In this document: in pieces, positions 7,217-20,412 of the stretch | How positions within the stretch are numbered: the stretch's first letter is position 1 | Layout of the letters: every line of letters starts with the position of its first letter | Assembly (NCBI RefSeq): GCF_006538745.1 | Contig: NZ_BJLR01000025.1 | Coordinates: 124,001-188,000 of the forward strand | DNA: 64,000 nucleotides | Source of the DNA: Cellulomonas cellasea | Lineage (GTDB): Bacteria > Actinomycetota > Actinomycetes > Actinomycetales > Cellulomonadaceae | Direction: 5' to 3' | Translations under genes and position numbers: made by a program | Notes under the pieces: generated by a model | Seen by the model: only the letters and a program-made list of their open reading frames with translations | Database searches by the model: none | What the model was told of the DNA's origin: nothing

Positions 7217-8002
7217 TCAGTCCTCGCCGCCGACCGGGATCAGCGGATTCTTGCCGGGCACCGCGCCCGGCAGGACGGGCGCCGGCGCGGCCGGGTCCGT
7301 CGGGGTCGGGAGGACCGTCGGGTCGGTGAGGACGTACATGACGCCGTCGACCGCGAGCTCGACGTGGCCGAGCTCCGTCGCAGGGCGACCGCCGCCCCCC
7401 TCCGCGACCTTCTGGCCCGTGGCACGCAGGCCCGTGACCAGGAACAGCCGCGAGGCCCGCTGGAGCGCGTCGACGAAGGCGAGCGTCGGCTCGTAGCCGC
7501 CGAGCACCGTGATGGAGACCGGCACCTGCACGAAGCCCGTGAGGGGCGCCGGGCCCGCCGGGGCGGGTGCCGTCGTTGCCGGGTCGGTCGCGCCGCCCTC
7601 GGCGGGCTCGGTCGTGGCGGGCGCGACCGGTGCCGCGACGGACACGGCGGGGACCACGGCCGTGGGCGCGCTCGGCGTCACGGACATCACGGTCACGCCG
7701 CTGGCCTTCGCGACCTCGTCGAGCTGCCGCAGGAACGCGGCGAGCTCGGCCCGGGTCGGGATTTGCACCCGGAGCGCGGCGAGCTCGGCCTTGTGCTCAG
7801 GCAGCTTCGCGAAGTCGGCCTCGAGCTGCGCGAGCTGCAGCTCCAGCAGGTCGTTCTGCGCCCGCACGGACTCGGTCTGCTCTCGCGACTCCGACGCGGT
7901 GGCGACGGTCGGCGAGACCAGCAGGAACCACGCGGCCGCGAGCATCGCCACCGCGACGAACGCGGTCCCGCCGATCCACGTGCTCTTCTTCGCTCCAGCC
8001 AT
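7217..8002 (-). CDS. pilO: Type IV pilus alignment protein PilO
   Basis: Inner-membrane partner of PilN in the PilMNO assembly platform. The 261-residue protein has a short cytosolic start, one membrane helix at about residues 11-29 ([17 protein letters not shown]), a coiled-coil stretch ([27 protein letters not shown]) with [20 protein letters not shown] typical of PilO, and a ferredoxin-like outer domain interrupted by an Ala/Pro/Thr-rich linker at about residues 115-160. It starts one base after the pilN stop and is the last gene of pilM-pilN-pilO, followed by a strong terminator. Confidence 0.88.
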
Positions 8003-8003
8003 G

Positions 8004-8708
8004 TCAGCTCGCTCCTTCCACGGCGGCGAAGCGCTGGACGTACGCCACGTCGGTGATCTGGGCGGTCGCCGAGACCGTGTAGTACGACGACCCGCTGTCC
8101 GACACCACCGCGGTCGACACCCACGCGTCGGCGAGGCCGGGGACCCCGTTGAGGGCGTCGATCATCGCCGCGGTGTCCGGGAGGGTCGCCGTGCGCCCGG
8201 TGAACTGCATCTGCCCGACGCTCGGGCCCTGCAGCGCGTCCGTCGGGGCGGCGGGCGCCATGACCGGCGTCGCGCCGGTCACGAGCAGCGTCTCGAGGCT
8301 GACCTCGGCGGGCAGGACCGCGCCGACCGCGTCGAGGTAGCCCTTCCAGAGGATCTCGGTCGACATGCCGGTCTCGCGCGCCTGCCGGGTGAGCTCGAGC
8401 GCGGAGAGCACCTGCGGGACCTCCGCGTACTTCTGCTGCTCGGCCTGCAGGCGCGAGGTCTCCTCCTGCGCGGACGTCAGCTCCCGGCTCGCCGCGGACA
8501 CGTCGACGAGCGCGATCGCGTAGGCCACGACGCACAGGGTGAGCACACCGAGCAGGCTCACGCCGAGCCACTTCTTGATGGCCTTGAGGCCGCGTGCGGC
8601 GCGCACCTCGGGCGGGAGCAGGTTGACCTGCGGGAGCGAGCCGGTGCCGACGAGCGACCCCGCGCTGCTCGGCTTGGCCCGGCGGGCGCGTTCGGTCAGG
8701 GCGGTCAT
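8004..8708 (-). CDS. pilN: Type IV pilus assembly protein PilN
   Basis: Bitopic inner-membrane protein that docks on PilM through its cytosolic N-terminus. The 234 residues include the PilM-binding motif VNLLPPEVR near residue 28 (the PilN INLLP signature), a membrane helix (LLGVLTLCVVAYAIALV), a coiled-coil, and a small fimbrial-type outer domain. The ATG at 8708 overlaps the pilM stop as ATGA, which fixes the start and implies coupled translation. Confidence 0.9.
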   Translation of the reverse strand: MTALTERARRAKPSSAGSLVGTGSLPQVNLLPPEVRAARGLKAIKKWLGVSLLGVLTLCVVAYAIALVDVSAASRELTSAQEETSRLQAEQQKYAEVPQVLSALELTRQARETGMSTEILWKGYLDAVGAVLPAEVSLETLLVTGATPVMAPAAPTDALQGPSVGQMQFTGRTATLPDTAAMIDALNGVPGLADAWVSTAVVSDSGSSYYTVSATAQITDVAYVQRFAAVEGAS

Positions 8709-9763
8709 GCGGCGACTCCGTAGGCCAGGCCGACCGGGAGGGCGACCAACGACTCGAGGCCCGTGAGCGACTCGCGCGCCACGGTCTTGCCGATCTTCAG
8801 ACCCGCGAGCGGGTCGCCGAGGGTCACCGGGAGCCGGCTCGCGCTCGACAGGTACTGGCCGAGGCCGGGCAGGTGCGATCCGCCGCCGGTCAGCACGACG
8901 GCCTCGATCAGCGCGCCCGGGTTGTTCCCGGCGTAGTAGACAAACGTGTTGCGGACCGACTCGATGAGCGTGCGGGTCACGTTCGCGACCGCCTCGGCGG
9001 CGGCCTCGTGCTCGGCCTCGACCGCGTAGCCGACGCCGATGGTCCGCTTGATGACCTCGGCCTCCGCGGCCGCGATCCCGAGCGCCGACGCCACGGCCGC
9101 CGTGACGTTCTGCCCGCCGGCGGGCAGCGTGCGCACCAGGCGCGGGACGCCGCGCGCCGAGATCACGACGTTCGTGACGCTCGCGCCGATGTCGACGAGC
9201 GCCACGACGCGGTCCGCGAGGTCCCCGCGAGCCACGGCACGCAGCAGGGCGAACGCGTTGAGGTCGACCATGCTCGCGCGCAGGCCGGCGCCCTCGACCG
9301 CGAGGACGTTGGCGTTCACGGTGTCGCGCTGGGCGGCGACGAGCATGCCCTGGACCGTGCGCCCCTGCGGGCCGTCGAACTCGCTCGTCGGGTAGTAGTC
9401 GAGCAGCGCGTCGTCGGTCGACATGGGCAGCAGCTCGTGCACCTGGTAGGGCAGCGACGCGCGCAGCTGCGGCAGCGGCATCCACGGCAGGTCGAGCTCA
9501 CGGACCATCACGCGCTGGTTGCCGACGCCGAGGACGACCTCCTTGGAGTCGAACTTCGCCGCGACCCAGAGCTGGCGCAGGGCGCTCGCGACCGTCTCGG
9601 GCTGGACGACCTCGCCGTCCCGGACCGCGCCGAGCGGCAGCGGCACCTGGCCGTAGCGCACGAGGGTCGGTGTGCCCGTGCGCGCGCCGCTGCGGAACTC
9701 GAGCTCCGCAGCACGCACGCACGTCGTGCCGATGTCGAGCCCGATAACTCGGGTGCTGGCCAC
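8705..9763 (-). CDS. pilM: Type IV pilus actin-like ATPase PilM
   Basis: Cytosolic actin-like protein that binds the PilN N-terminus and links the PilNO complex to the assembly motor. The 352-residue sequence shows VIGLDIGTTCVRAAEL (phosphate-1 loop), VVALVDIGASVTNVVI (phosphate-2) and VVLTGGGSHLPGL (adenosine motif). A GTG at 9784 is in frame, but GTG 9763 has AAAGGGG five bases upstream and leads directly into the domain, so it is preferred. First gene of the pilMNO unit; a FliA-like promoter lies about 40 bases upstream. Confidence 0.92.
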   Translation of the reverse strand: MASTRVIGLDIGTTCVRAAELEFRSGARTGTPTLVRYGQVPLPLGAVRDGEVVQPETVASALRQLWVAAKFDSKEVVLGVGNQRVMVRELDLPWMPLPQLRASLPYQVHELLPMSTDDALLDYYPTSEFDGPQGRTVQGMLVAAQRDTVNANVLAVEGAGLRASMVDLNAFALLRAVARGDLADRVVALVDIGASVTNVVISARGVPRLVRTLPAGGQNVTAAVASALGIAAAEAEVIKRTIGVGYAVEAEHEAAAEAVANVTRTLIESVRNTFVYYAGNNPGALIEAVVLTGGGSHLPGLGQYLSSASRLPVTLGDPLAGLKIGKTVARESLTGLESLVALPVGLAYGVAA

Positions 9764-9799: not shown

Positions 9800-9828
9800 C
9801 TATCGGGCGGTGGGCGGGGCTTCTTGAG
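9800..9828 (-). promoter_or_regulatory. FliA/SigD/WhiG-like promoter of pilMNO
   Basis: Minus strand CTCAAG (9823-9828), 15 bases, CCCGATAG (9800-9807), about 37 bases before the pilM start and 25 bases past the pilD stop. The same arrangement recurs before pilA, pilT and pilB. Confidence 0.65.
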
Positions 9829-9852
9829 GAGCCGTGCGAGCGACTTTGACGC

Positions 9853-10638
9853 TCAGAGGAGGTCGAGGTACGCGTCGAGCAGCGGTTCACCCGCGAGCAG
9901 GCCGACCGCGGCCCCCACGAGCATCCACGGCCCGAACGGGATGCCGGTCTTGCGGCCCGCGCGCCCCGACAGGAGCAGCGCGACGCCGAACACGCCCCCG
10001 AGCACGAACGCCGCGAACCAGCCGACGACGAGAGCGCCCCAGCCGACCCAGCCGAGGTACAGGCCGAGCACGCCGGCGAGCTTGACGTCCCCGAAGCCCA
10101 TCCCGGCCGGGTAGACGAGCACGAGCAGGAAGTACACGGCGTAGAGCACGGCGCAGCCGATCGCCGCGCGCAGCAGCGCGGGCCAGTCGCTCGCTCCCCC
10201 GGGGTTCGCGCTCGCGAGCGCGAGCAGGACCGCCGCCACCGGGTAGGAGGGCAGCACGATCGCGTTCGGCAGGCGGTGCGTGTCGAGGTCGATGAGCGCG
10301 AGCGCCACCGCGACCGCGGCGAGGTACAGGAACGCGGGCAGCGCCCACGACGGGCCGAGCCACGCGGCCGTGAGCGCGAAGAGCACCGCGGTGCCGGCCT
10401 CGACGAGCGGGTAGCGCGCCGAGATCGGTGCCGCGCAGTCGCGGCACCGGCCCCGCAGGAGGAGCCAGGACACGACCGGGACGTTGTCGCGCGGGCGGAT
10501 CTCGTGCCCGCACGCCGGGCACGCGCTCGGCGGGTGCACGACCGACTCGCGGCGCGGCACCCGCCAGACGACGACGTTGAGGAACGACCCGATGGCCGCA
10601 CCGAAGAGTGCGGCCACCAGGACGAGCGGGAGCGTCAC
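9853..10638 (-). CDS. pilD: Prepilin peptidase / N-methyltransferase
   Basis: Cleaves the leader of prepilins after the conserved Gly and methylates the new N-terminus. The 261-residue membrane protein has the N-terminal FGAAIGSFLNVVVWRVPRRES motif, two CxxC zinc-type pairs (CPACGHEI and CRDCAAPI) of the methylase domain, and both catalytic aspartates: one in ALIDLDTHRLPNAI, the other in GMGFGDVKLAGVLG. GTG 10638 overlaps the previous stop as GTGA. All substrates (major and minor pilins) lie just upstream in the same transcript. Confidence 0.94.
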   Translation of the reverse strand: MTLPLVLVAALFGAAIGSFLNVVVWRVPRRESVVHPPSACPACGHEIRPRDNVPVVSWLLLRGRCRDCAAPISARYPLVEAGTAVLFALTAAWLGPSWALPAFLYLAAVAVALALIDLDTHRLPNAIVLPSYPVAAVLLALASANPGGASDWPALLRAAIGCAVLYAVYFLLVLVYPAGMGFGDVKLAGVLGLYLGWVGWGALVVGWFAAFVLGGVFGVALLLSGRAGRKTGIPFGPWMLVGAAVGLLAGEPLLDAYLDLL

Positions 10639-12263
10639 GGCGTCGGCGCGGGCGTGCTCGCGGGCTTGACCTCGCGCTTGTAGACGACGTCGACGCGGAA
10701 GCCCGAGGCCGCGGTGGGCGTGGTGCTCGGGAAGGTGACGCCCGGGATGCCGATGGGCACGTACCGCTGCGTCATGTTGTTCCGGAGAATCACGTTGCCA
10801 CCGTACAGCTGGCCGTAGAACGTGGCCGTGTTGTTCGTCTCGAGCGTGCACGGGGTGTAGACGAACAGCGTGATCGGGGCGATCGCGAGGCTGCCGGAGT
10901 CGATCTTGAAGTTGCCCGACTTCTTGCCGCCGACCGTCTTGCCGCACTCCGCGAGCCCGTTGGGGGTCGGGTCGGGGTCCGGGATGATGATCCAGACGTT
11001 GTGCTGCGCGCCGTCCTTCGAGGTGATCTTGAAGTTGCCGGTCGCGTAAAAGTCGTTGGCGAAGATCACGAGGTCCGAGCGGAGCTGGATGTCGAGCCCG
11101 CCCTGGAACATCGTCTGGGCGCAGTGCCGCGTGTCGAAGACCGTCGGGACGGCGGGCCCCACGAGCGGGCCGTTGACCCCGTAGCTCTCCCCCGCGACGG
11201 TGCACTGGGTCTTCGCCGGGTTGCGCGCGTCCGACCAGGTCGGGGCGTTGTTCGCCACCGCGTTGTCGATGACCCACTGGCGGTAGGCCGCCGAGCGGTC
11301 GCCGGACGTGACGAAGCCCGTCCAGTCGCTCAGCCGGTAGTTGACCTCGGGGAGCTTCACGGGTACGTACTGCGGGATCGAGCTCGCCGCGACGCCGGTG
11401 CGCACGGAGCCACCCGCCTGCGGTCCGCCGCCCCACGTGCTCAGGCCGCCGACGATCATGACGTCACGGCCGTACTTGGACCCGCCCGCGAGCGTGGCGC
11501 CCGCGGACGCGTACGTGTCGACCCCGACGGTCGTCAGGCCGGCGGACTGCGCGCTGTGCACCGTGAGCGCCTTCTTGCTCCACAGGTTCTGGGTGATGCG
11601 GCACGCGTTCGAGATGTCGACCTTGCCGTCGACGACGATGAGGTTGCCGTCGATCTTGACGTTGGAGTTGCAGTTGACGTCGCCCGTGTCGACCCACACG
11701 TCGACCTCGGTGTCGGGCAGCGACGTCTCGAGCGTGAAGCCGTTCGTCGTCATGATCGAGCTCGCCGCGAAGATCGCCGCGCCGCGCCCGGGCACGCTCA
11801 GCGGCGTGAGGTTGACCTTCGACTGCACGGAGCGTCGGCTGGGCGTAGAGGACCCGACCTGGGGGGACGTCGACGTCGCCGTCACGACGGCGAGGGTCGG
11901 GCTGCCGGTCACGGCGCCGGCCGAGCACGGGAGCTGGACGTTGTTGACGTCGTAGTACGTCACGGCGGCGGACACGGTCGTGGTGCTCGGGGACGTGCCC
12001 GACGAGAACGTCCCGCTCGCCGGCCACTGGCACGGCGTGGAGGTCTCGAGCTCGGCGAACACCGCGTCGACCGCGCCCTCGGCGCTGTGCACCTGGACGG
12101 TCCGAGCACGGTCCCGCCCGGAGTCGTTCGCGGTCACGATGGTGTTCGCGACCACGACGGACGCCAGCGCGATCCCGATCAGGGCGACGGCGACCGCGGC
12201 GACGAGCGCGGCACCCCGCTCCCGGTCGTCGCCCGTCACACGGTGACGCAGCGCTCTCAGCAT
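10635..12263 (-). CDS. Large PilX-like pilus-associated protein
   Basis: A 542-residue protein of unknown exact role. It begins MLRALRHRVTGDDRERGAAL followed by a single hydrophobic helix (VAAVAVALIGIALASVVVANTIV), like the PilX N-terminus but without the Glu5 of true pilins. The remainder looks extracellular: Ser/Thr/Gly-rich, with several Cys residues that could form disulfides (for example around residues 60, 90, 195, 205) and repeated beta-type segments such as NVKIDGNLIVVDGKVDIS, reminiscent of a beta-helix. ATG 12263 has AGGAGA at good spacing. Its place among minor pilins and pilD suggests a pilus tip or surface function. Confidence 0.65.
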   Translation of the reverse strand: MLRALRHRVTGDDRERGAALVAAVAVALIGIALASVVVANTIVTANDSGRDRARTVQVHSAEGAVDAVFAELETSTPCQWPASGTFSSGTSPSTTTVSAAVTYYDVNNVQLPCSAGAVTGSPTLAVVTATSTSPQVGSSTPSRRSVQSKVNLTPLSVPGRGAAIFAASSIMTTNGFTLETSLPDTEVDVWVDTGDVNCNSNVKIDGNLIVVDGKVDISNACRITQNLWSKKALTVHSAQSAGLTTVGVDTYASAGATLAGGSKYGRDVMIVGGLSTWGGGPQAGGSVRTGVAASSIPQYVPVKLPEVNYRLSDWTGFVTSGDRSAAYRQWVIDNAVANNAPTWSDARNPAKTQCTVAGESYGVNGPLVGPAVPTVFDTRHCAQTMFQGGLDIQLRSDLVIFANDFYATGNFKITSKDGAQHNVWIIIPDPDPTPNGLAECGKTVGGKKSGNFKIDSGSLAIAPITLFVYTPCTLETNNTATFYGQLYGGNVILRNNMTQRYVPIGIPGVTFPSTTPTAASGFRVDVVYKREVKPASTPAPTP

Positions 12264-12280
12264 CGGTTCTCCTCGGTCGG

Positions 12281-12985
12281 TCACGGGGTGGGGATGGTGG
12301 CGCACTTGTCGGCGGGGTACCCGAAGACGGTGTTGCGGCCGGTCAGGACGGACGTGACGCTCGCGGGCTTCGAGGACGCCCGCTGGGCCGGGTCCTTGAG
12401 CCGCAGCGTGACCCGGATCGTCTGCGCCTCGGAGCTCGCCTGGGCCGCGGACGACGGGTCGACGTAGAACGGCGGCCAGGTCGTGGGGTCGGACTCCACG
12501 AAGCCGGTCCCGGTCGGCTTGACGACGTTGTGCGCGACGACGCGCCAGTCCTCGACCCCGCCCACGGCCTGCCAGTCCGGCCGCCACGAGCGGTACTCGA
12601 GGTCACCGAACTCCGAGCCGGCCGGGTAGATCACGCGCCACTGCACGCACTGGTACACGCCGTCCGTCTGCGTGTGCACGCGCAGCGAGTAGTACGGCGC
12701 GACGCCCGAGCCGGCGATGGTCTCGGCCGCGGGGTCGGAGATGACGTTCCCCGAGCGCACCTGCCGGTCGATCTGCATGAGGCCGAGGCGCGCCTCCTCG
12801 ACCGCGCGGTTGCGCGCGAGGTTGTCCCGCGTCTGCGTGCTCACCGAGATGAGGATCGAGAACACGATCGTCAGCAGCACCGCGAAGATCGTCATCGAGA
12901 CCATGAGCTCGACGAGGGTCCAGCCCTCGTCGCCCCGGCGTCGGCGGCGCGCCGCGGCGAGCCGGGCCCGCAGGAGATCACGCAT
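12281..12985 (-). CDS. Minor pilin, PilW/PulJ-like
   Basis: A 234-residue prepilin. The leader is long and basic (about 20 residues, rich in Arg), cleavage is expected after Gly in DEG/WTLVELMVSMTIFAVLL, Glu5 is present, and the hydrophobic helix follows. The C-terminal domain has two late Cys residues but no family I can name. It overlaps the preceding minor pilin by 8 bases, so the two are co-translated. Minor pilins of this type prime pilus assembly at the tip. Confidence 0.8.
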   Translation of the reverse strand: MRDLLRARLAAARRRRRGDEGWTLVELMVSMTIFAVLLTIVFSILISVSTQTRDNLARNRAVEEARLGLMQIDRQVRSGNVISDPAAETIAGSGVAPYYSLRVHTQTDGVYQCVQWRVIYPAGSEFGDLEYRSWRPDWQAVGGVEDWRVVAHNVVKPTGTGFVESDPTTWPPFYVDPSSAAQASSEAQTIRVTLRLKDPAQRASSKPASVTSVLTGRNTVFGYPADKCATIPTP

Positions 12986-14786
12986 CGGGGGCCGCCTTGT
13001 AGCCGGCGTTCGCGTTGGCCGTGCCGTACGTCGCGACCGCGGTGAACGCGCTCGAGCCGAGCGGCGTGCTCAGCGTGTACGTCACCGTGACCGTGAGCGT
13101 CCCCGCCTCGGCGTCGAGCGAGCACCCGTCGGTCTTGCACAGCAGCGGGTCCGGGTTGGACGCGATCGACATCGCCGGGGTCACCGCCACGGTGGCCTTC
13201 GCGGTCACGGTCCCGTTCGGGGTCGTCCACGTCACCTGGCCGCCGTTGACGGTCTGGTTCGTGCTCGGCGTGACCGTGAGGGTCTGGTACCCGGCGCCGT
13301 CCCAGTACTGGACGCTCGCGCTGCGCGTCGCCGTGGCCGCGGTCGTGCGCTGCGAGGAGCCGCGCTCGACGAGCACGGAGTCGGTGTACGACGCGACGCG
13401 GACGAGGCCGTTCGCGGCGGCGACGCCGCCGTCCCAGGGACCGACGCCGAACGTCGAGCCGCCGAGCGTGCGCTGCGAGCCGGCCGACGTGCAGCCGGCG
13501 CCCGCGAGCGTCGCGCACCCGACCGCCGCCGTGCCGGGGGCGTTCGTGAAGCGTCCGGTGAACGTCGAGGAGGAGCCGCCGCCCGCGTAGCCCCAGACCG
13601 AGACGGAGCCGGTCGGCAGCGAGAGGGTCACGTTCGACGCGCTGCCCGAGCTGAGCAGCCCGGCGGAGCACGGCTGGCCGGCCGGGATGCCGGTGCGGCA
13701 CGACGCGGTCGTCGAGGCGCGGGCGGTGCCGCTCGTGCCGGTGCCGGCGGTCAGGCTCAGGCTCGCCGGTCCGGCGGGGATGTTCGTCGTCGCGACCGGG
13801 CCCGTGCCGACGACGTCAGCGGGGTTGGCGGGCGCGGCGCCCGACGCACCGACGTCGTTCGACGCAGCGTTCGTGAGCTTGCCGGAACCGTCCGAGGCCA
13901 GGGGGGTCGCGGGGTCGACGCCCTCGACGACGACGCCGCCGTGCGTCACGACCGAGTCGGTCGCGGTGGCCTGCTGCGAGGTCGAGCTGCTCCCCGCGCG
14001 GGACAGGCTCAGCGTCGCGGTGAGCGCGTTCGAGCCGGGCAGGAGCGGCCACGGGCCGGGGCCGGGGGCCGGAGGGGCGGCCGGGCCGACGACGGTCGTG
14101 GCGGGGTCCTGGCCGGTGAGCGTGATGGAGGGGCCGAGCGCGCCACCCGAGCTCGACAGCAGCGCCTGGCACGCGCCGAGGAAGGGCTGGTTCGCGGGGT
14201 CGCCGCAGCCGCCGTCGGGCGCGTACGCCTGCGAGCGGGCGATCACGGACGCCGCGGTCGACCTGCCCGAGCGCGTCCAGGTCGTGATGACGGTCAGCGT
14301 GAGCACGTCGGTGGTCGTGGCCGACGAGCGCGACACGTACACGCGCGAGGTGAACGGCGTCCCGACGCCCGAGACGTCGGCCGAGACGGTCTTGTTGCTC
14401 CCCCCGGTGCCGGACAGCGGCGGGACGTCGGTCGCCTGGCTGCTCGACGTGACGAGCACCTCGTTGATCGAGGGGTCCGCCACGGGGCGCAGGCTCCCGC
14501 CCGCGACGTTCGCGTCCCCGCCCGCGGCGCCGGCGAAGTTCGTGTGCAGCCCGCGGCTGAGCACGAGCCACGGGAGCGAGCGCAGCTCCTCGAGGATCTG
14601 GTTGCTCACCGCGGTGGCCTGCGTGCGCTGACGCGACTGCGCGGTCGTCACGAGCGCGGACGTCTGGACCGCCATGAGGATGACCAGCACCGCGGTGATG
14701 ATCATCATCGCGACGAGCAGCTCGATGAGGGAGAACCCGGTGTCCTCCCGGGGCGCCGTGACGCGGCGGACCAGCCTCTTCAGCAC
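12978..14786 (-). CDS. Large minor pilin, PilV-like, with adhesin-size extension
   Basis: A 602-residue prepilin: leader MLKRLVRRVTAPREDTG, cleavage before FSLIELLVAMMIITAVLV, Glu5 present. This is three to four times the size of ordinary pilins. The outer region is rich in Ser, Thr, Gly and Ala with TTWTRSGRST and VTWTTPNGTVTAKATV-like beta segments and an Ala/Pro/Gly-rich linker near residue 240, giving the look of an adhesin tip subunit. GTG 14786 is preceded by GAGAGGAG. It lies just behind the strong hairpin that follows pilA, so it is probably expressed less than pilA. Confidence 0.8.
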   Translation of the reverse strand: MLKRLVRRVTAPREDTGFSLIELLVAMMIITAVLVILMAVQTSALVTTAQSRQRTQATAVSNQILEELRSLPWLVLSRGLHTNFAGAAGGDANVAGGSLRPVADPSINEVLVTSSSQATDVPPLSGTGGSNKTVSADVSGVGTPFTSRVYVSRSSATTTDVLTLTVITTWTRSGRSTAASVIARSQAYAPDGGCGDPANQPFLGACQALLSSSGGALGPSITLTGQDPATTVVGPAAPPAPGPGPWPLLPGSNALTATLSLSRAGSSSTSQQATATDSVVTHGGVVVEGVDPATPLASDGSGKLTNAASNDVGASGAAPANPADVVGTGPVATTNIPAGPASLSLTAGTGTSGTARASTTASCRTGIPAGQPCSAGLLSSGSASNVTLSLPTGSVSVWGYAGGGSSSTFTGRFTNAPGTAAVGCATLAGAGCTSAGSQRTLGGSTFGVGPWDGGVAAANGLVRVASYTDSVLVERGSSQRTTAATATRSASVQYWDGAGYQTLTVTPSTNQTVNGGQVTWTTPNGTVTAKATVAVTPAMSIASNPDPLLCKTDGCSLDAEAGTLTVTVTYTLSTPLGSSAFTAVATYGTANANAGYKAAPDA

Positions 14787-14839
14787 GACGCTCCTCTCGA
14801 GCGGTCGACGACGGTGGGGTTCGTTCTGGGTACGGGTTC

Positions 14840-14881
14840 ACCGACAGGGCAGGAGGCGAGCGCCTCCTGCCCTGTCGGTGC
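14840..14881 (-). terminator. Very strong hairpin after pilA
   Basis: A perfect 20-bp stem (14840-14859 with 14862-14881) with a two-base centre, starting 12 bases after the pilA stop. There is no U-run. It is the longest perfect stem seen in the window and most likely makes the pilA mRNA end here or be stabilised here, with partial read-through to the minor pilins. Confidence 0.8.
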
Positions 14882-14893
14882 GTCCAGCCTGGG

Positions 14894-15361
14894 TCAGCAG
14901 CTTTCCTTGTTCAGGCCCTTGGCTGCCGAGTAGAAGACCGTCGTGCGCGTGCCGCCCGTGTAGGTGAGCGTGACGCACCAGTTGACGGCCGCGTTCGCGA
15001 TGGTGGCGCCACCGGTGCCGGTGTACGACAGCGTCGCGCCGGAGACGGGGCCGCTCTTGACGCCCATGTCGGCGATGGCCGTCGTGCCCGTGCCGATCGA
15101 CCACTTGCTGTCGGTGGAGCCGACGCCGAAGGCGCCCGCCGCGATGGGGTCCTTCGCGTCGACGTAGTACGTGGCGATCTCCTTGCCGAGCGTCGAGACG
15201 TCCGACGTGGCGGCGGTGTCGTTCGCCTTCTTGCGCTGGTTGAGGAACACCGGGATCGCGATGGCCGCGAGGATCCCGATGATGATCATGACGACCAGGA
15301 GCTCGATCAGGGTGAAGCCCTGGTCCTTCTCCTGCATGGACTTGCGGATGCGAGCGATCAC
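14894..15361 (-). CDS. pilA: Major type IV pilin
   Basis: A 155-residue prepilin and the likely main fibre subunit. The leader is VIARIRKSMQEKDQG; the mature N-terminus FTLIELLVVMIIIGILAAIA with Glu5 and IPVFLNQRKKAND is the classical signature. Two Cys residues near the C-terminus (WCVTLTY and the final KESC) could close the D-loop disulfide. The frame is open further upstream, but GTG 15361 has GGAG six bases before it and gives a normal leader. A FliA-like promoter lies about 85 bases upstream and a 20-bp hairpin directly downstream, consistent with a separate abundant transcript. Confidence 0.94.
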   Translation of the reverse strand: MIARIRKSMQEKDQGFTLIELLVVMIIIGILAAIAIPVFLNQRKKANDTAATSDVSTLGKEIATYYVDAKDPIAAGAFGVGSTDSKWSIGTGTTAIADMGVKSGPVSGATLSYTGTGGATIANAAVNWCVTLTYTGGTRTTVFYSAAKGLNKESC

Positions 15362-15444
15362 GTCGTGCTCCCGTTCGGTGGTGTCGTGCGAGTCGGTTTT
15401 CCAGCTCAGTGCCGGCCGGGGCCGGATCAGGTGGTGCACCCGAT

Positions 15445-15473
15445 TCATCGGGCGCCTCCCCCGTCCCCTTGAG
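15445..15473 (-). promoter_or_regulatory. FliA/SigD/WhiG-like promoter of pilA
   Basis: Minus strand CTCAAG (15468-15473), 15 bases, CCCGATGA (15445-15452). The -10 half is itself inside a 14-base hairpin-type palindrome (15439-15452, CCCGAT/ATCGGG arms). The start codon is about 85 bases downstream. Confidence 0.65.
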
Positions 15474-15481
15474 CGCCTGGG

Positions 15482-15498
15482 CCGCGATTCACTCGCGG
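15482..15498 (-). terminator. Possible hairpin terminator of pilTC
   Basis: CCGCGA and TCGCGG arms around a 5-base loop, 34 bases past the pilC stop and immediately before the pilA promoter. The stem is short, so this is a modest call. Confidence 0.35.
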
Positions 15499-15532
15499 TT
15501 CACCCGTTCGGCGGGCGCGCGCCCGTTTTGTA

Positions 15533-16762
15533 TTACTCGATCAGGTTGAAGATGCCGAAGATCGGCATGTACATCGCGATGATCATTCCGCCGACGATGC
15601 CACCGATGACGACGATCATGATGGGCTCGATGAGGCTCGTGAGCTGCTCCGTGGTCGCCTCGACCTCCTGGTCGTAGAAGTCGGCGATCTTGTCGAGCAT
15701 CGTGTCGAGCGCGCCCGTGTCCTCACCGACCGCCATCATCTGCACGACCATCGGCGGGAACACGGGGTGCTGCGAGAGCGGGCCCGTCAGGGACTCACCG
15801 CGGCGCACGGACTCCTCGACGGCCTTCGCGGCCCGCTCGATCACGAGGTTGCCGCTCGTCTCCCCCACGATGTCGAGGGCGTGCAGGATCGGCACGCCCG
15901 CGTGGATCATCGTCCCGAAGTTGCGGGTGAAGCGGGACACCGCGATCTTCTGGAAGAGCTTGCCGAACACCGGGACCTTGAGCTTCCAGGGGTCGACCTT
16001 CTCGCGGATCGCGCGGTCGTTCTTGTGCTTTCCCCACCACACCGCGAATACCCCCAGCGCGATGACGGTCGGCACGATCGTCCATTTCAGGATGTCCGAG
16101 AGGATCACCAGGATCCGCGTCGGCAGCGGCAGGGTCCCGCCGAGCGTCGCGAACATCCCGGCGAAGATCGGCACGATGAACAGCAGCATGCCGACCGTCG
16201 CCAGGATCGCGATCACGAATACGACCACGGGATAGGTCATCGCGGACTTGATCTTGCCGCGGAGCTTGACCTCGGTCTCGAAGTTGTCGGCGACCGAGAC
16301 CAGCACCTCGTCGAGGAAGCCGCCGACCTCGCCGGCCTTGACCATGTTGATCATGATCGGCGGGAAGACGTTGGGGTGCTTCGCGAGCGCGTTCGAGAAC
16401 GCCACGCCCGTCTCGACGTCGCTGCGCACCTGCGCGAGCACCTTCGACAGCGGCTTGGACTCGGTCTGCTCGGCGAGGATCGACAGCGCGCGCAGCAGCG
16501 ACAGCCCCGCGCTGATCATCGTCGCGAGCTGCCGCGACATGATGGCGAGGTCCTTGAGCGAGATCTTCTCGCCCATGCCGAAGAGCGTGATCTCCTTGTT
16601 CAGGCCGCCGTTCGAGACCGCCTCGATCGACACGGGGGCCAGCCCCATGCCCTTGAGACGGTTCGCGACGGCCGCCTGGTTGTGCGCCTCGATCCGGCCC
16701 TTGACGAGCTTGCCCGAGCGGTCCCGGACCGCGTACTCGTAGGTCGTGGTCGCGTCCGCCAT
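15533..16762 (-). CDS. pilC: Type IV pilus platform protein PilC
   Basis: Inner-membrane platform of the GspF/PilC family on which PilB and PilT act. The 409-residue length is normal. Both GspF repeats are visible: the first with LAIMSRQLATMISAGLSLLRAL and FPPIMINMVKAGEVGGFLDEVL, the second with RFTRNFGTMIHAGVPILHAL and FPPMVVQMMAVGEDTGALDTML. Membrane helices lie near 175-195, 225-245 and at the C-terminus. The ATG shares one base with the pilT stop (TGATG), so it is coupled to pilT. Confidence 0.95.
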   Translation of the reverse strand: MADATTTYEYAVRDRSGKLVKGRIEAHNQAAVANRLKGMGLAPVSIEAVSNGGLNKEITLFGMGEKISLKDLAIMSRQLATMISAGLSLLRALSILAEQTESKPLSKVLAQVRSDVETGVAFSNALAKHPNVFPPIMINMVKAGEVGGFLDEVLVSVADNFETEVKLRGKIKSAMTYPVVVFVIAILATVGMLLFIVPIFAGMFATLGGTLPLPTRILVILSDILKWTIVPTVIALGVFAVWWGKHKNDRAIREKVDPWKLKVPVFGKLFQKIAVSRFTRNFGTMIHAGVPILHALDIVGETSGNLVIERAAKAVEESVRRGESLTGPLSQHPVFPPMVVQMMAVGEDTGALDTMLDKIADFYDQEVEATTEQLTSLIEPIMIVVIGGIVGGMIIAMYMPIFGIFNLIE

Positions 16763-18336
16763 CAGTACGCCTGCCCGTTCATCGTCGCCATCGCGGCCTG
16801 GCCGCCCTGCACCCCGCCTGAGAAACGGCCGGTCAGGCGGTTGAAGTCCTCGATGTGGTGGCACTTCTCGAGGCCGGTCTCGTGGGTGATCCGGCCGGTC
16901 TTCACGAGGTCCGCGAGGTGCTGGTCGAGCGTGTGCATGCCCTGCTGGGCGCCCGCCTGCATCGAGGAGTAGATCTGGTGCGTCTTGCCCTCGCGGATGA
17001 GGTTGCGGATCGCCGGCGTCGCGACGAGGACCTCTGTCGCCACCGCGCGCCCCGGACCGTCCGCGCGCTTGCACAGCGTCTGGCACACGACGCCCTGCAG
17101 GGCGCCGGCGAGCTGCGTGCGCACCTGAGCCTGCTGGTGGGAGGGGAACACGTCGATGATGCGGTCGATCGTCTGCGCGGCGTCCTGCGTGTGCAGCGTC
17201 GCGAAGACGAGGTGACCGGTCTCCGCCGCGGTGAGCGCCACGGAGATCGTCTCGAGGTCACGCATCTCGCCGACGAGGATGATGTCGGGGTCCTGGCGCA
17301 GCACGTGCTTGAGGGCGTTCGCGAACGAGTGCGTGTCCGCGCCGACCTCGCGCTGGTTGATCAGCGACTTCTTGTGCTTGTGCAGGAACTCGATCGGGTC
17401 CTCGACCGTCATGATGTGGTCCTCGCGCGTGCGGTTCGCGAGGTCGACGATCGCGGCGAGCGTCGTGGACTTGCCCGAGCCGGTCGGCCCGGTGACGAGG
17501 ACCAGCCCGCGGGGCATCCCGGCGAACGTCCCGACGATCGGCGGGACGCCGAGGTCCTCGAGCGGCTTGATCTCGTACGGGATGACACGGAACGCCGCGC
17601 CGATCGCCTCGCGCTGCTGGTAGAGGTTCACGCGGAACCGCGCGTGGCCGCGCACCGAGTACGCGAAGTCGAGCTCGAGGTTCTCCTCGAACGTCTCGCG
17701 CTGCTTCTGCGTGAGCACCGAGTACAGCGAACGCTGGAGCGAGTCGGGCATGAGCCGGTCGAAGCCCTCGAGCGGGCGCAGCGAGCCGCTGAGCCGGATC
17801 ATCGGCGGCGCGCCGGACGTCAGGTGCAGGTCGGACGCACCGGTCTTGATCATCGCGACGAGCGCCTGGTCGAGCTGCAGGTCGTCGTCGTGCGACTCCT
17901 GGCTCATGCCGATGCGCGAGCTGCGCGCGGCGGCGCGGGTCGGTGGCGTGGGGACCTCGCCGCGCGGGGCTCCGGCGGGCGCCGCGGCACCTGCGGGGCG
18001 CCCGGGGGGGCTTCCGACGGGCGGAGCGTGCGGCGCGGCCGTCGGCGCGGCGGGCTGGTACCCGCCGGGTGCGGCGGGCGGCGGGTACGCGCCCGGCGGG
18101 GGCGGCGGGTAGCCGGCGGCGGCCGGCGGCGGGTAGCTGCCGGGCGGCGGCGGGAGGGGCGCCGGCGGGCCGACGGGCGGCGCGGCACCCGCGCTGCCCT
18201 GCGAGGGCACCGGCATGTAGGTGGGCCGTCCCGTGACGGGGGCGTCGCTCGGGGGGCCGGCCTGCGGACCCGCCGGCCGGTACGGCGGCAGCGGCCGCGT
18301 CGGGTCGGCGCCGCGGGCCTGGTACGAGTCGCTCAC
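16762..18336 (-). CDS. pilT: Pilus retraction ATPase PilT with a long Pro-rich N-terminus
   Basis: Hexameric ATPase that powers pilus retraction. The last ~350 of 524 residues form the PilT core: QALVAMIKTGASDLHLTSGAPP start, Walker A GPTGSGKSTTLA, Walker B DIILVGEMRDLETI, and the His box HLVFATLHTQDAAQTI. The first ~165 residues are unusual: Pro/Ala/Gly/Tyr-rich with PPP, YPPPAA and GAYPPP repeats, probably disordered and perhaps a docking tail. GTG 18336 has GGAGG seven bases upstream, so this tail appears to be translated. A FliA-like promoter is about 80 bases upstream. Confidence 0.93.
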   Translation of the reverse strand: MSDSYQARGADPTRPLPPYRPAGPQAGPPSDAPVTGRPTYMPVPSQGSAGAAPPVGPPAPLPPPPGSYPPPAAAGYPPPPPGAYPPPAAPGGYQPAAPTAAPHAPPVGSPPGRPAGAAAPAGAPRGEVPTPPTRAAARSSRIGMSQESHDDDLQLDQALVAMIKTGASDLHLTSGAPPMIRLSGSLRPLEGFDRLMPDSLQRSLYSVLTQKQRETFEENLELDFAYSVRGHARFRVNLYQQREAIGAAFRVIPYEIKPLEDLGVPPIVGTFAGMPRGLVLVTGPTGSGKSTTLAAIVDLANRTREDHIMTVEDPIEFLHKHKKSLINQREVGADTHSFANALKHVLRQDPDIILVGEMRDLETISVALTAAETGHLVFATLHTQDAAQTIDRIIDVFPSHQQAQVRTQLAGALQGVVCQTLCKRADGPGRAVATEVLVATPAIRNLIREGKTHQIYSSMQAGAQQGMHTLDQHLADLVKTGRITHETGLEKCHHIEDFNRLTGRFSGGVQGGQAAMATMNGQAY

Positions 18337-18415
18337 TGAATGGCCTCCACGTCTTCGGAACGCACGTCGCCGGGCACGCCCGGCGGTCGAGGCCCACTCA
18401 GGGCGCTCTGTCGTC

Positions 18416-18444
18416 TCATCGGCCGGCGGCCCCCGGGTCTTGAG
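18416..18444 (-). promoter_or_regulatory. FliA/SigD/WhiG-like promoter of pilTC
   Basis: Minus strand CTCAAG (18439-18444), 15 bases, GCCGATGA (18416-18423), about 80 bases before the pilT start, inside the 310-base gap after pilB. Confidence 0.7.
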
Positions 18445-18577
18445 GGACAAGGGGCACCGAGGTCCACGGCGAGTGACGCCGCGGGCTCTGCGAGCGGGGC
18501 GCGGGCGACGACGGATGGGACGCACGCCGTGCGGGACGGACGACGGCCGGGACGGTCGACGGCCCGGACGAACGACG

Positions 18578-18611
18578 GTGCCCGCGCCGGTCGACAGTGC
18601 CCGCGCCGGTC
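18578..18611. repeat. 15-base direct repeat in the pilB-pilT gap
   Basis: GTGCCCGCGCCGGTC at 18578-18592 recurs one base changed (AGTGC start) at 18597-18611, period 19. The gap 18337-18646 also contains several short GGGACGG/GACGG runs and the pilTC promoter; no gene is seen in it. Confidence 0.5.
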
Positions 18612-18646
18612 CGGACGGCACCGTCAGCGCGAGCCGGCGGCCCGGG

Positions 18647-20326
18647 TCACGCCACGACGCGCAGGATCTCCTCGATCGACGTCATCCCGAGGGCGACCTT
18701 GTGCCAGCCGTCGTCGCGGAGCTGGATCATGCCCTGCTTGCGCGCGGTCGCGGCGATGTCGGCAGCCGACGAGTGCGACACCGCGTGGCGCTCGATCTCC
18801 TCGGTCACCCGCATGACCTCGTGCAGCGCGATGCGGCCGCGGTACCCCGTCTTGGAGCACGAGACGCATCCCGCGGGCCGGTTGAGCACGGGGATCTCCT
18901 CACCCTCGACCCACGGGAACCTCGCGGCGACGAGCTCGGTCGGCGTGGGCCGGTACGGCTCCTTGCACTTGTCGCAGAGCTTGCGCGCGAGCCGCTGCGC
19001 GACCACGGCGTCGAGGGCCGAGCCGACGAGGAACGGCTCGATGCCCATCTCGACGAGGCGCGTGATCGCCGACGGGGCGTCGTTCGTGTGCAGCGTCGAG
19101 AGCACGAGGTGACCGGTGAGGGCCGCCTCGATCGCGATCTGGGCGGTCTCGTGGTCACGGATCTCACCGAGGAGCACGACGTCGGGGTCCGAGCGCAGGA
19201 TCGAGCGCAGCGCGCCGGCGAACGTCAGGCCGGCCTTCGGGTTGACCTGCACCTGGTTGATCCCGGCGAGCCGGTACTCCACAGGATCCTCGACCGTGAT
19301 CACGTTGATCTCGGGCCGCGAGACGGCGTTGAGCGTCGCGTAGAGCGTCGTCGACTTGCCGGAGCCGGTCGGCCCGGTCACGAGGATCATGCCGTAGGGC
19401 TTGGTGTACGCCTCGCGGTAGACGTCGTAGTTCTGGTCGAGGAACGACAGGTCGCGCAGGTCGAGGCTCGCGGTGGAGTTGTCGAGGATACGCATGACGA
19501 TCTTCTCGCCCCACACCGTCGGGAGCGTCGCGACGCGGAGGTCGATCTTGCGCCCGTTGTGGTTGATCGACATGCGGCCGTCCTGCGGCTTGCGCCGCTC
19601 GGCGATGTCGATGTCGCTGAGGATCTTGACGCGGCTGATCACGCCGCCGGTGATCTGCTTGGGCGAGCGCTGCATCTCGTGCAGCACGCCGTCGATGCGG
19701 TAGCGCACCCGCAGGTCGTGCTCGCTCGGCTCGATGTGGATGTCCGACGCGCGGTCCGTGATCGCCTGCGAGACGAGCAGGTTGACGTACCGGACGATCG
19801 GCGCGTCGTCGTCGACGAACTCCCCGACGCGCGCGAGGTCGGCCTCGGCCGTCGCGGCCTGCTGCTCCTCCTCGAACGCGGAGGTCAGGTCGTCCATCTC
19901 GCCGTCGGCGCGGCAGAACCGGTCGATCGCGCGCGTGAGGTTGTCGTAGGTCGCGACGACCGGCGTGACCTGCAGGCCCGACATCGTGCGGACGTCGTCG
20001 ACCGCCACGACGTTGCCGGGGTCCGCGGTCGCGAGGACCAGGGACCCGTTCGCGAAGCCGACGGGGAGGACCGTGTACCGCCGGCACAGCGCCGCGGGCA
20101 CGACGCTCACGGCCGAGCGGTCGACGGGGTACTCGTCGAGGTCGATAAAGTCCATGCCGACCTGGCGCGCGAGCGCGGCGACGAGCTGCCCCTCGGAGAG
20201 GATGCCGATCTCGACGAGCGTGCGCCCGAGCGACTGCCCGCGCGTGAGCTGCTCGTCCATCGCGGCCATGAGCTGGGACTCCGTGACCAGACCCTCGTCC
20301 AGCAAGATCTCGCCGAGCTGCTTCAC
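18647..20326 (-). CDS. pilB: Pilus extension ATPase PilB
   Basis: Hexameric ATPase driving pilin polymerisation. The 559-residue protein starts with two MshEN half-motifs (QLGEILLDEGLVTESQLMAA and SLGRTLVEIGILSEGQLVAA), a domain known in MshE/PilB proteins to bind cyclic di-GMP. The C-terminal core has SDIHIEPSE, Walker A GPTGSGKSTTLY, Walker B DVVLLGEIRDHETA, the His box HLVLSTLHTNDAPSAI, and a zinc CxxC...CxxC set (KLCDKCKE and GCVSCSKT). GTG 20326 has GAGAGGA upstream. A FliA-like promoter is about 58 bases upstream. Confidence 0.95.
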   Translation of the reverse strand: MKQLGEILLDEGLVTESQLMAAMDEQLTRGQSLGRTLVEIGILSEGQLVAALARQVGMDFIDLDEYPVDRSAVSVVPAALCRRYTVLPVGFANGSLVLATADPGNVVAVDDVRTMSGLQVTPVVATYDNLTRAIDRFCRADGEMDDLTSAFEEEQQAATAEADLARVGEFVDDDAPIVRYVNLLVSQAITDRASDIHIEPSEHDLRVRYRIDGVLHEMQRSPKQITGGVISRVKILSDIDIAERRKPQDGRMSINHNGRKIDLRVATLPTVWGEKIVMRILDNSTASLDLRDLSFLDQNYDVYREAYTKPYGMILVTGPTGSGKSTTLYATLNAVSRPEINVITVEDPVEYRLAGINQVQVNPKAGLTFAGALRSILRSDPDVVLLGEIRDHETAQIAIEAALTGHLVLSTLHTNDAPSAITRLVEMGIEPFLVGSALDAVVAQRLARKLCDKCKEPYRPTPTELVAARFPWVEGEEIPVLNRPAGCVSCSKTGYRGRIALHEVMRVTEEIERHAVSHSSAADIAATARKQGMIQLRDDGWHKVALGMTSIEEILRVVA

Positions 20327-20383
20327 GGTCGTCCTCTCGTCGCGGGCGCGCCCAGGGATCGCGCGCGTACGTGCCCAGAGGAC

Positions 20384-20412
20384 TTATCGGCACGCACCGG
20401 GTGCGTCGTGAG
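20384..20412 (-). promoter_or_regulatory. FliA/SigD/WhiG-like promoter of pilB
   Basis: Minus strand CTCACG (20407-20412), 15 bases, GCCGATAA (20384-20391). The second half is a perfect match to the classical FliA/WhiG -10 element. Confidence 0.75.

Follow-up and report, generated by a model that had tools for sequence, protein, structure and literature searches.

Putative WhiG-type promoters upstream of the type IV pilus genes of Cellulomonas cellasea, and a parallel class of flagellar sites with mostly shorter spacers

Type IV pilus genes of Cellulomonas cellasea are encoded on the minus strand of a 64,000-nucleotide stretch of contig NZ_BJLR01000025.1 (positions 124,001 to 188,000; hereafter the window), where four short sites upstream of pilB, pilT, pilA and pilM (Table 1) are probably promoters for a WhiG-type sigma factor, which would place pili and flagella in parallel regulons under two sister sigma factors. 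The pattern CTCAMG-N15-SCCGATRR has four exact matches in the 64 kb window, every one on the minus strand, whereas 100 dinucleotide shuffles averaged 0.02 matches and never gave more than one. The sites have the features of promoters of the flagellar clade of sigma factors: a -10 element near GCCGATAA, a short -35 element at fixed spacing, and a gene downstream. According to the proposed scheme, the CTCAAG-like -35 and the GCCGATRA-like -10 that follows 17 bases after CTCA (the gap, as counted throughout) would be recognized by a WhiG-type sigma factor, which would transcribe a single regulon made up of pilB, pilTC, pilMNO, and pilA together with the minor pilins. The operon limits of these groups, and the start of transcription at the sites, are predicted from the sequence.

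An earlier note on this DNA had reported the same four minus-strand sites, and its assignment of them to the FliA/WhiG type agrees both with the match of the -10 to the flagellar-sigma consensus and with the presence of a WhiG orthologue in the genome. The distance to the start codons, put there at 37-85 bases, is close to the recounted 36-83 bases (measured on the sequence from the end of the motif to the likeliest start codon; pilM has an alternative earlier GTG, 15 bases from the motif end), and family searches recover PilB, PilT, PilC, PilM and the prepilin as named. Its statement that each pilus transcription unit has one site stands as regards the four sites, the units themselves being predictions. 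Genome-wide (4.73 Mb), the exact pattern has eight matches, four of them in the window, versus none for a reversed control pattern.

Table 1. Candidate promoter sites and type IV pilus genes of the window
Feature	Position	Strand	Basis or remarks
WhiG-type site upstream of pilB (putative)	20384..20412	-	CTCA-N17-GCCGATAA; GTG 57 bases on
WhiG-type site upstream of pilT (putative)	18416..18444	-	CTCAAG-N15-GCCGATGA; GTG 79 bases on
WhiG-type site upstream of pilA (putative)	15445..15473	-	CTCAAG-N15-CCCGATGA; GTG 83 bases on
WhiG-type site upstream of pilM (putative)	9800..9828	-	CTCAAG-N15-CCCGATAG; GTG 36 bases on
pilB, extension ATPase	18647..20326	-	TIGR02538, 652 bits, just under cut-off 675.65
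pilT, retraction ATPase, long N-terminal extension	16762..18336	-	TIGR01420, 500 bits, cut-off 319; start from sequence
pilC, inner-membrane platform protein	15533..16762	-	NF052607, 421 bits, best match, under cut-off 700
pilA-like prepilin	14894..15361	-	TIGR02532 prepilin domain, 38.3 bits, cut-off 16.3
Large prepilin-like protein (minor pilin)	12978..14786	-	N-terminal GFSLIELLVAM, sequence reading only
Prepilin-like protein (PilW-type)	12281..12985	-	N-terminal GWTLVELMVSM, sequence reading only
pilM	8705..9763	-	TIGR01175, 173 bits, cut-off 133
PilO-like membrane protein	7217..8002	-	place after pilM and sequence only

The pilus sites are conserved in related genomes. Among the best 80 of 558 pil loci, mostly from Cellulomonas but also from Actinotalea, Sanguibacter, Demequina, Kineococcus and others, CTCA-Nk-SCCGATRR matches the cluster strand 88 times at k=17, 10 times at k=16, 16 times at k=13 and 6 times at the remaining gaps between 12 and 21, versus three matches in total, one of them at k=17, on the opposite strand. 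The gap-13 matches were rejected as promoters: most lie within the PilT coding region near the start of the conserved match and recur through shared coding sequence. Usable upstream regions were obtained for pilB (72), pilT (76), pilA (73) and pilM (68). Outside Demequina, a site with at most one mismatch precedes pilB in 55 of 63 regions (gap 17 in 45; 12/315 shuffles), pilT in 63 of 66 (gap 17 in 61; 65/330 shuffles of a 900-base region), pilA in 51 of 63 (gap 17 in 44; 12/315 shuffles) and pilM in 57 of 58 (gap 17 in 50; 2/290 shuffles); pooled, 226 of 250 regions have a site, at gap 17 in 200. In Demequina, the corresponding counts are 3/9, 8/10, 0/10 and 1/10, and gap 17 does not occur among these sites. 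Some Demequina (loci L122, L125 and L132) have a CTAAAG/CTCAAG-N14-GCCGATA site upstream of pilT. The site of L125 coincides in part with an inverted repeat, AGTGA-N6-TCACT, that may resemble a Crp-type operator.

By profile search, the C. cellasea genome has nine matches to TIGR02479, three of them above 100 bits. The best (264.5 bits, cut-off 189.6; G000 C19:183616-184296, L009) is whiG, which adjoins one gene read by eye as a XerC-type recombinase and lies near another so read as ribosomal protein S2 (rpsB), and the part of its product before a stop codon has Streptomyces venezuelae WhiG (6pfj, 267 bits) as its best match of solved structure. The next best (164.7 bits, under the cut-off) is a FliA-like sigma factor encoded in the flagellar cluster of contig C43, adjoining flagellin. 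Thus, the genome has both WhiG and a FliA-like protein, as separate sigma factors. Among 49 relatives, drawn from 50 of the 80 loci, WhiG is found over the cut-off in 46, none with an internal stop, and 32 have a match that scores within the FliA-type band (159-185 bits, set by reading the score list); the 17 that lack such a match are seven of the ten Demequina and ten others. Of these ten others, nine carry WhiG over the cut-off. Each of the nine retains pil sites at gap 17, in eight cases at two or more pil genes; the remaining one (G049) has a single gap-17 pil site, along with a sigma match that is only partial (102.6 bits).

The flagellar genes are preceded by a second class of sites, mostly one base shorter (CTCA-N16-GCCGATRR), which the FliA-like sigma factor of the flagellar cluster would recognize as its own. 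The strict pilus pattern has no match in contig C43. With the gap widened, the C. cellasea genome has 47 matches (7 for the reversed control), 11 at gap 17 and 20 at gap 16, part of the latter being coding background, since ten gap-19 matches share codon phase with gap 16; three gap-17 matches other than CTCAMG are flagged inside genes. Five of the gap-16 matches are on C43, including sites before fliC and flgB, and flgN has a GTCA version of the site upstream. Of the 15 gap-16 matches outside C43, 12 were examined (six scanned with Pfam); three of these stand before GGDEF genes, and a methyl-accepting chemotaxis gene and a SpoIIE-type phosphatase gene are each preceded by one.

All but one (G013) of the 32 relatives with a FliA-type-band match contributed flagellar loci (31 relatives, three of them Demequina; 494 kb), in which 35 matches have gap 16, three gap 15 and none gap 17. 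Sites are present before fliC in 24 of 29 regions (3/145 shuffles), flgN in 25 of 31 (5/155) and flgB in 20 of 24 (6/120); in these 69 of 84 regions, the gap is 16 in 54, 17 in two and another length in 13. In a fourth flagellar set (genes like C43:22789-24012), sites are few (5 of 18 regions, four at gap 16). The AG that usually follows CTCA in pilus sites (CTCAAG) is seldom seen in flagellar sites. In 21 of the 26 genomes scored for both classes, pili have a modal gap of 17 and flagella one of 16, one of the 21 (G045) being counted at 17 on a 2:2 tie of its pil gaps. Thus, pilus and flagellar sites differ in sequence and spacing, mostly 17 versus mostly 16 with exceptions, and a separate FliA-like sigma factor with shorter flagellar sites points to pili and flagella run in parallel, WhiG presumably reading the gap-17 class and FliA the gap-16 class. 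The two sister sigma factors would be told apart mainly by spacer length and by the AG after CTCA. The tie between pili and flagellar control suggested in the earlier note is not borne out by flagellar sites that are mostly a base shorter and seldom have AG after CTCA, or by a flagellar cluster with its own FliA-like sigma factor; the concentration of matches that it anticipated is found before pil genes, but not, with the strict pattern, on the flagellar contig.

Across the class, PilM is encoded in 68 of 246 sampled genomes, C. cellasea included, and WhiG over the cut-off in 51 of the other 67. Upstream regions of pilM were fetched for 60 of these (45 with WhiG, 13 without, two with fragments only), and a gap-16 or gap-17 site is present in 28 of 45 with WhiG versus 2 of 13 without (Fisher p 0.004; 3/15 versus 28/45, p 0.007, if the two fragment genomes are counted as lacking WhiG), p-values that overstate the association because the relatives share ancestry. 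Together with the sites kept by the nine relatives that have WhiG but no FliA-band match, this association argues that the pilus sites most likely serve WhiG, and that pili are most likely not simply tied to flagella.

Several other observations weigh against assigning the pilus sites to WhiG. If any gap from 13 to 20 is allowed, the class-wide association weakens to 28/45 versus 4/13 (p 0.06), and 17 of the 45 WhiG genomes have no site with at most one mismatch, several of those scored as misses having CTCAAG with a two-mismatch gap-17 site. One of the two genomes that have a site but no WhiG over the cut-off (G100, 93% complete) is by all signs the same assembly as G018 (identical contig, coordinates and score). 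Among the relatives, pil sites in the absence of WhiG over the cut-off are found in G040 and in G030, where the match is a fragment at the start of a contig. The spacer classes also have exceptions: 26 of the 226 pil sites have gap 16, Cellulomonas marina (G048, L112) has gap 16 at all four, and the flagellar mode is not 16 in G026, G028, G035 and G040, with two scored sites each. C. marina also has CTCAGG or CTCACA in place of CTCAAG at its pil sites, yet CTCAAG at its fliC site; a lineage switch of promoter class is possible. The sigma gene presupposed by the earlier note is present in C. cellasea but is interrupted: whiG matches TIGR02479 positions 1-224 with one in-frame TAG, which lies in region 4.2, the part reading the -35. 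If the TAG is real, the strain would be without full WhiG, or FliA would take over; because its own pil sites are still near consensus, the interruption would be either recent or a sequence error.

The interrupted whiG beside intact pil sites would be accommodated if the flagellar FliA-like sigma factor read both classes as one motility regulon, the one-base difference being tolerated variation, and the FliA-like gene and flagellar cluster in the genome, the pil sites at gap 16, and the FliA-type matches of G030 and G040 fit this as well. Such an arrangement is nevertheless unlikely, given the almost complete separation of the spacer classes (35 versus 0 in flagellar loci), the pil sites kept in nine genomes with WhiG and no FliA-band match, and the class-wide association of the pilM site with WhiG. 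It is less likely still that WhiG reads both classes, with spacer length only tuning strength and the FliA-like protein having another role; the -10 and the CTCA core are identical in both classes and WhiG is the more widespread (46/49 versus 32/49 with a FliA-band match), but the FliA-like gene sits in the flagellar cluster adjoining flagellin, and a FliA-band match is missing in seven of ten Demequina and ten other relatives, which may also lack flagellar genes. A bipartite sequence conserved before several unlinked genes could also be the operator of a DNA-binding regulator, such as the LuxR-type protein described below, rather than a sigma site; this is very improbable for sites with a -10 half that matches the published flagellar-sigma consensus GCCGATAA (PMC8325347), an orientation fixed towards the gene (88 versus 1), and an occurrence that goes with a sigma gene.

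With WhiG as the preferred candidate, the regulon would extend beyond the pil cluster, to a second pilT located elsewhere in the genome, to the gene of an orphan LuxR-type regulator and, in a good number of relatives, to that of an RsiG-like anti-sigma factor. In 25 relatives, the exact pattern CTCAAG-N15-SCCGATRR has 65 matches, in 24 genomes, and the control one; here, as in C. cellasea (eight versus none), matches are not random, as the earlier note had expected. They fall at pil clusters (32, two by position only), the orphan LuxR-type gene (11), the second pilT (five), the RsiG-like gene (two), a camelysin/TasA-like gene (one) and a GGDEF-EAL gene (one), with 13 unassigned; 34 of the 65 were read individually and the others were placed by pil-locus match or position. 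Matches inside genes, which the earlier note had named as a warning sign, are few: 5 of 34 non-pil or unplaced matches in relatives are flagged intragenic, three of the five before the second pilT, and in C. cellasea one of the four outside the pil cluster is flagged within a called gene (L001).

The orphan LuxR-type gene of C. cellasea (L008 / L026:859-1404, plus strand) begins 37 bases after an exact site, and an exact site precedes this gene in 11 of the 25 relatives as well. Its product has only GerE, a helix-turn-helix domain, over the Pfam cut-off, along with an N-terminal part that is conserved in six orthologues and has no Pfam name. The second pilT of C. cellasea, unlinked to the pil cluster, has a one-mismatch site upstream, and the camelysin/TasA-like gene (L027:6943-7662, minus strand) also has a WhiG-type site. 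A large gene read by eye as GGDEF-EAL (L027:7831-10029, minus strand) directly precedes the camelysin/TasA-like gene. In Cellulomonas chitinilytica (L232), the same type of camelysin-like gene lies behind a site.

The 134-residue product encoded behind one exact site matches Pfam RsiG (23.8 bits, E 3.7e-5, cut-off 27), and many Cellulomonadaceae and Demequina encode short RsiG-like proteins that score below the PF22802 cut-off. The C. cellasea genome has a PF22802 match of 16.2 bits (E 0.039), under the curated cut-off of 27; the cut-off is exceeded in 8 of 50 genomes, none of them Cellulomonadaceae or Demequina. Single weak scores prove little, since 6 of 14 control genomes have a match at E<=1, none over the cut-off. 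From 45 matches, those of G033 and G024 and two of G010 were excluded (frame not RsiG-like), and the canonical proteins of G012 and G015 and stretches L308 and L310 were left out. A profile comparison of 33 short proteins, that of C. cellasea included, with six canonical RsiG proteins gives a probability of 74.5 and E 2.7e-5 over helix 1, so that both Pfam and profile comparison link the short proteins to RsiG. A search of solved structures with a single RsiG-like sequence gave no match, and NCBIfam named neither of two such sequences. The motif for binding cyclic di-guanosine monophosphate (c-di-GMP), E(x3)S(x2)R(x3)[QH](x3)D, is not matched in the alignment of the short proteins, read by eye: helix 1 keeps mainly R and D, S has disappeared and R has mostly replaced Q/H (some proteins still have H or Q), and the second helix keeps little beyond E/D.

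Upstream of the 33 RsiG-like genes are eight exact and 11 one-mismatch gap-17 sites and one gap-16 site, with none in 13; shuffles give a gap-17 site in 4 of 660. The 19 genes with gap-17 sites include seven of the seven Demequina genes read (three more Demequina genomes gave no usable gene), and the 13 without a site include those of C. cellasea, in which CTCAAG is present but the -10 is poor, and of most core Cellulomonas. Since the sites precede 19 of 33 genes and the C. cellasea copy is among the 13 that lack one, an autoregulated anti-sigma factor, which would restrain WhiG and itself be transcribed by it, is likely in many relatives, and autoregulation appears weak or absent in C. cellasea. 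A response of the pilus to c-di-GMP may persist at the level of the motor, given that PilB residues 3-55 match an MshE-type c-di-GMP-binding domain over the cut-off (NF053729, 54.5 bits, cut-off 38).

The promoters, WhiG and the pil cluster are of known kinds; the comparisons that follow refer to the sections of the cited papers drawn on here. In Rubrobacter, control of type IV pili by WhiG has been published, RsiG is a c-di-GMP-binding dimer with a single motif, and promoters were found with TAAA and GCCGATAA (PMC8325347). The likeness extends to a WhiG-family sigma factor, to flagellar-type promoters inside the pil cluster and to promoters before c-di-GMP enzymes, here represented by the one GGDEF-EAL gene among the 65 exact matches. 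Unlike in Rubrobacter, the RsiG-like proteins of Cellulomonadaceae and Demequina are short with most motif residues changed, and the sites have CTCAAG and a longer gap and occur beside a separate flagellar class. In Actinoplanes, which has no RsiG, pil genes and flagellar genes alike are under the control of WhiG-like flagellar sigma factors (PMC8325347), and FliA-family control of zoospore pili and flagella is described in Actinoplanes missouriensis (PMC8325347; also PMC13293333, PMC11064477). A one-base spacer split is not found in those accounts, as far as these sections extend, and the control in A. missouriensis serves the zoospores of an organism that makes sporangia. Cellulomonas is not known to form sporangia. 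In Streptomyces, the targets of the orthologous WhiG are whiH and whiI (PMC4255298), and an orphan response-regulator or LuxR-type regulator is a target there and a predicted target here. The LuxR-type gene may parallel whiI, but WhiG serves sporulation there and would serve pili here, and only GerE exceeds the Pfam cut-off in the protein described here.

In the open-licence literature of PubMed Central, which leaves most subscription papers outside its scope, no description was found of WhiG-controlled pili in Cellulomonas, of a spacer split between pilus and flagellar promoters, or of an RsiG-like gene that has an eroded motif and is driven by WhiG; both the split and the self-regulation of the RsiG-like gene appear to be new. 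More tentatively, and with somewhat less than even confidence, an ancestral flagellar-clade regulon may have split in the Cellulomonadaceae, gap-17 sites going with WhiG to pili and gap-16 sites with FliA to flagella, while WhiG came to transcribe a motif-less descendant of RsiG in a self-limiting loop that would persist in Demequina (7/7 genes) after pili left the regulon.

According to a 2013 review of 100 actinobacterial genomes, the role of WhiG in motile simple actinobacteria was still without analysis (PMC4255298). For Cellulomonas and its relatives, the sites described here would supply a concrete and testable answer, namely WhiG for type IV pili and a sister sigma factor for flagella. 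They would also be an example from nature of two promoter classes told apart by a single spacer base, and the short RsiG-like proteins may mark an intermediate step in the escape of WhiG from control by c-di-GMP.

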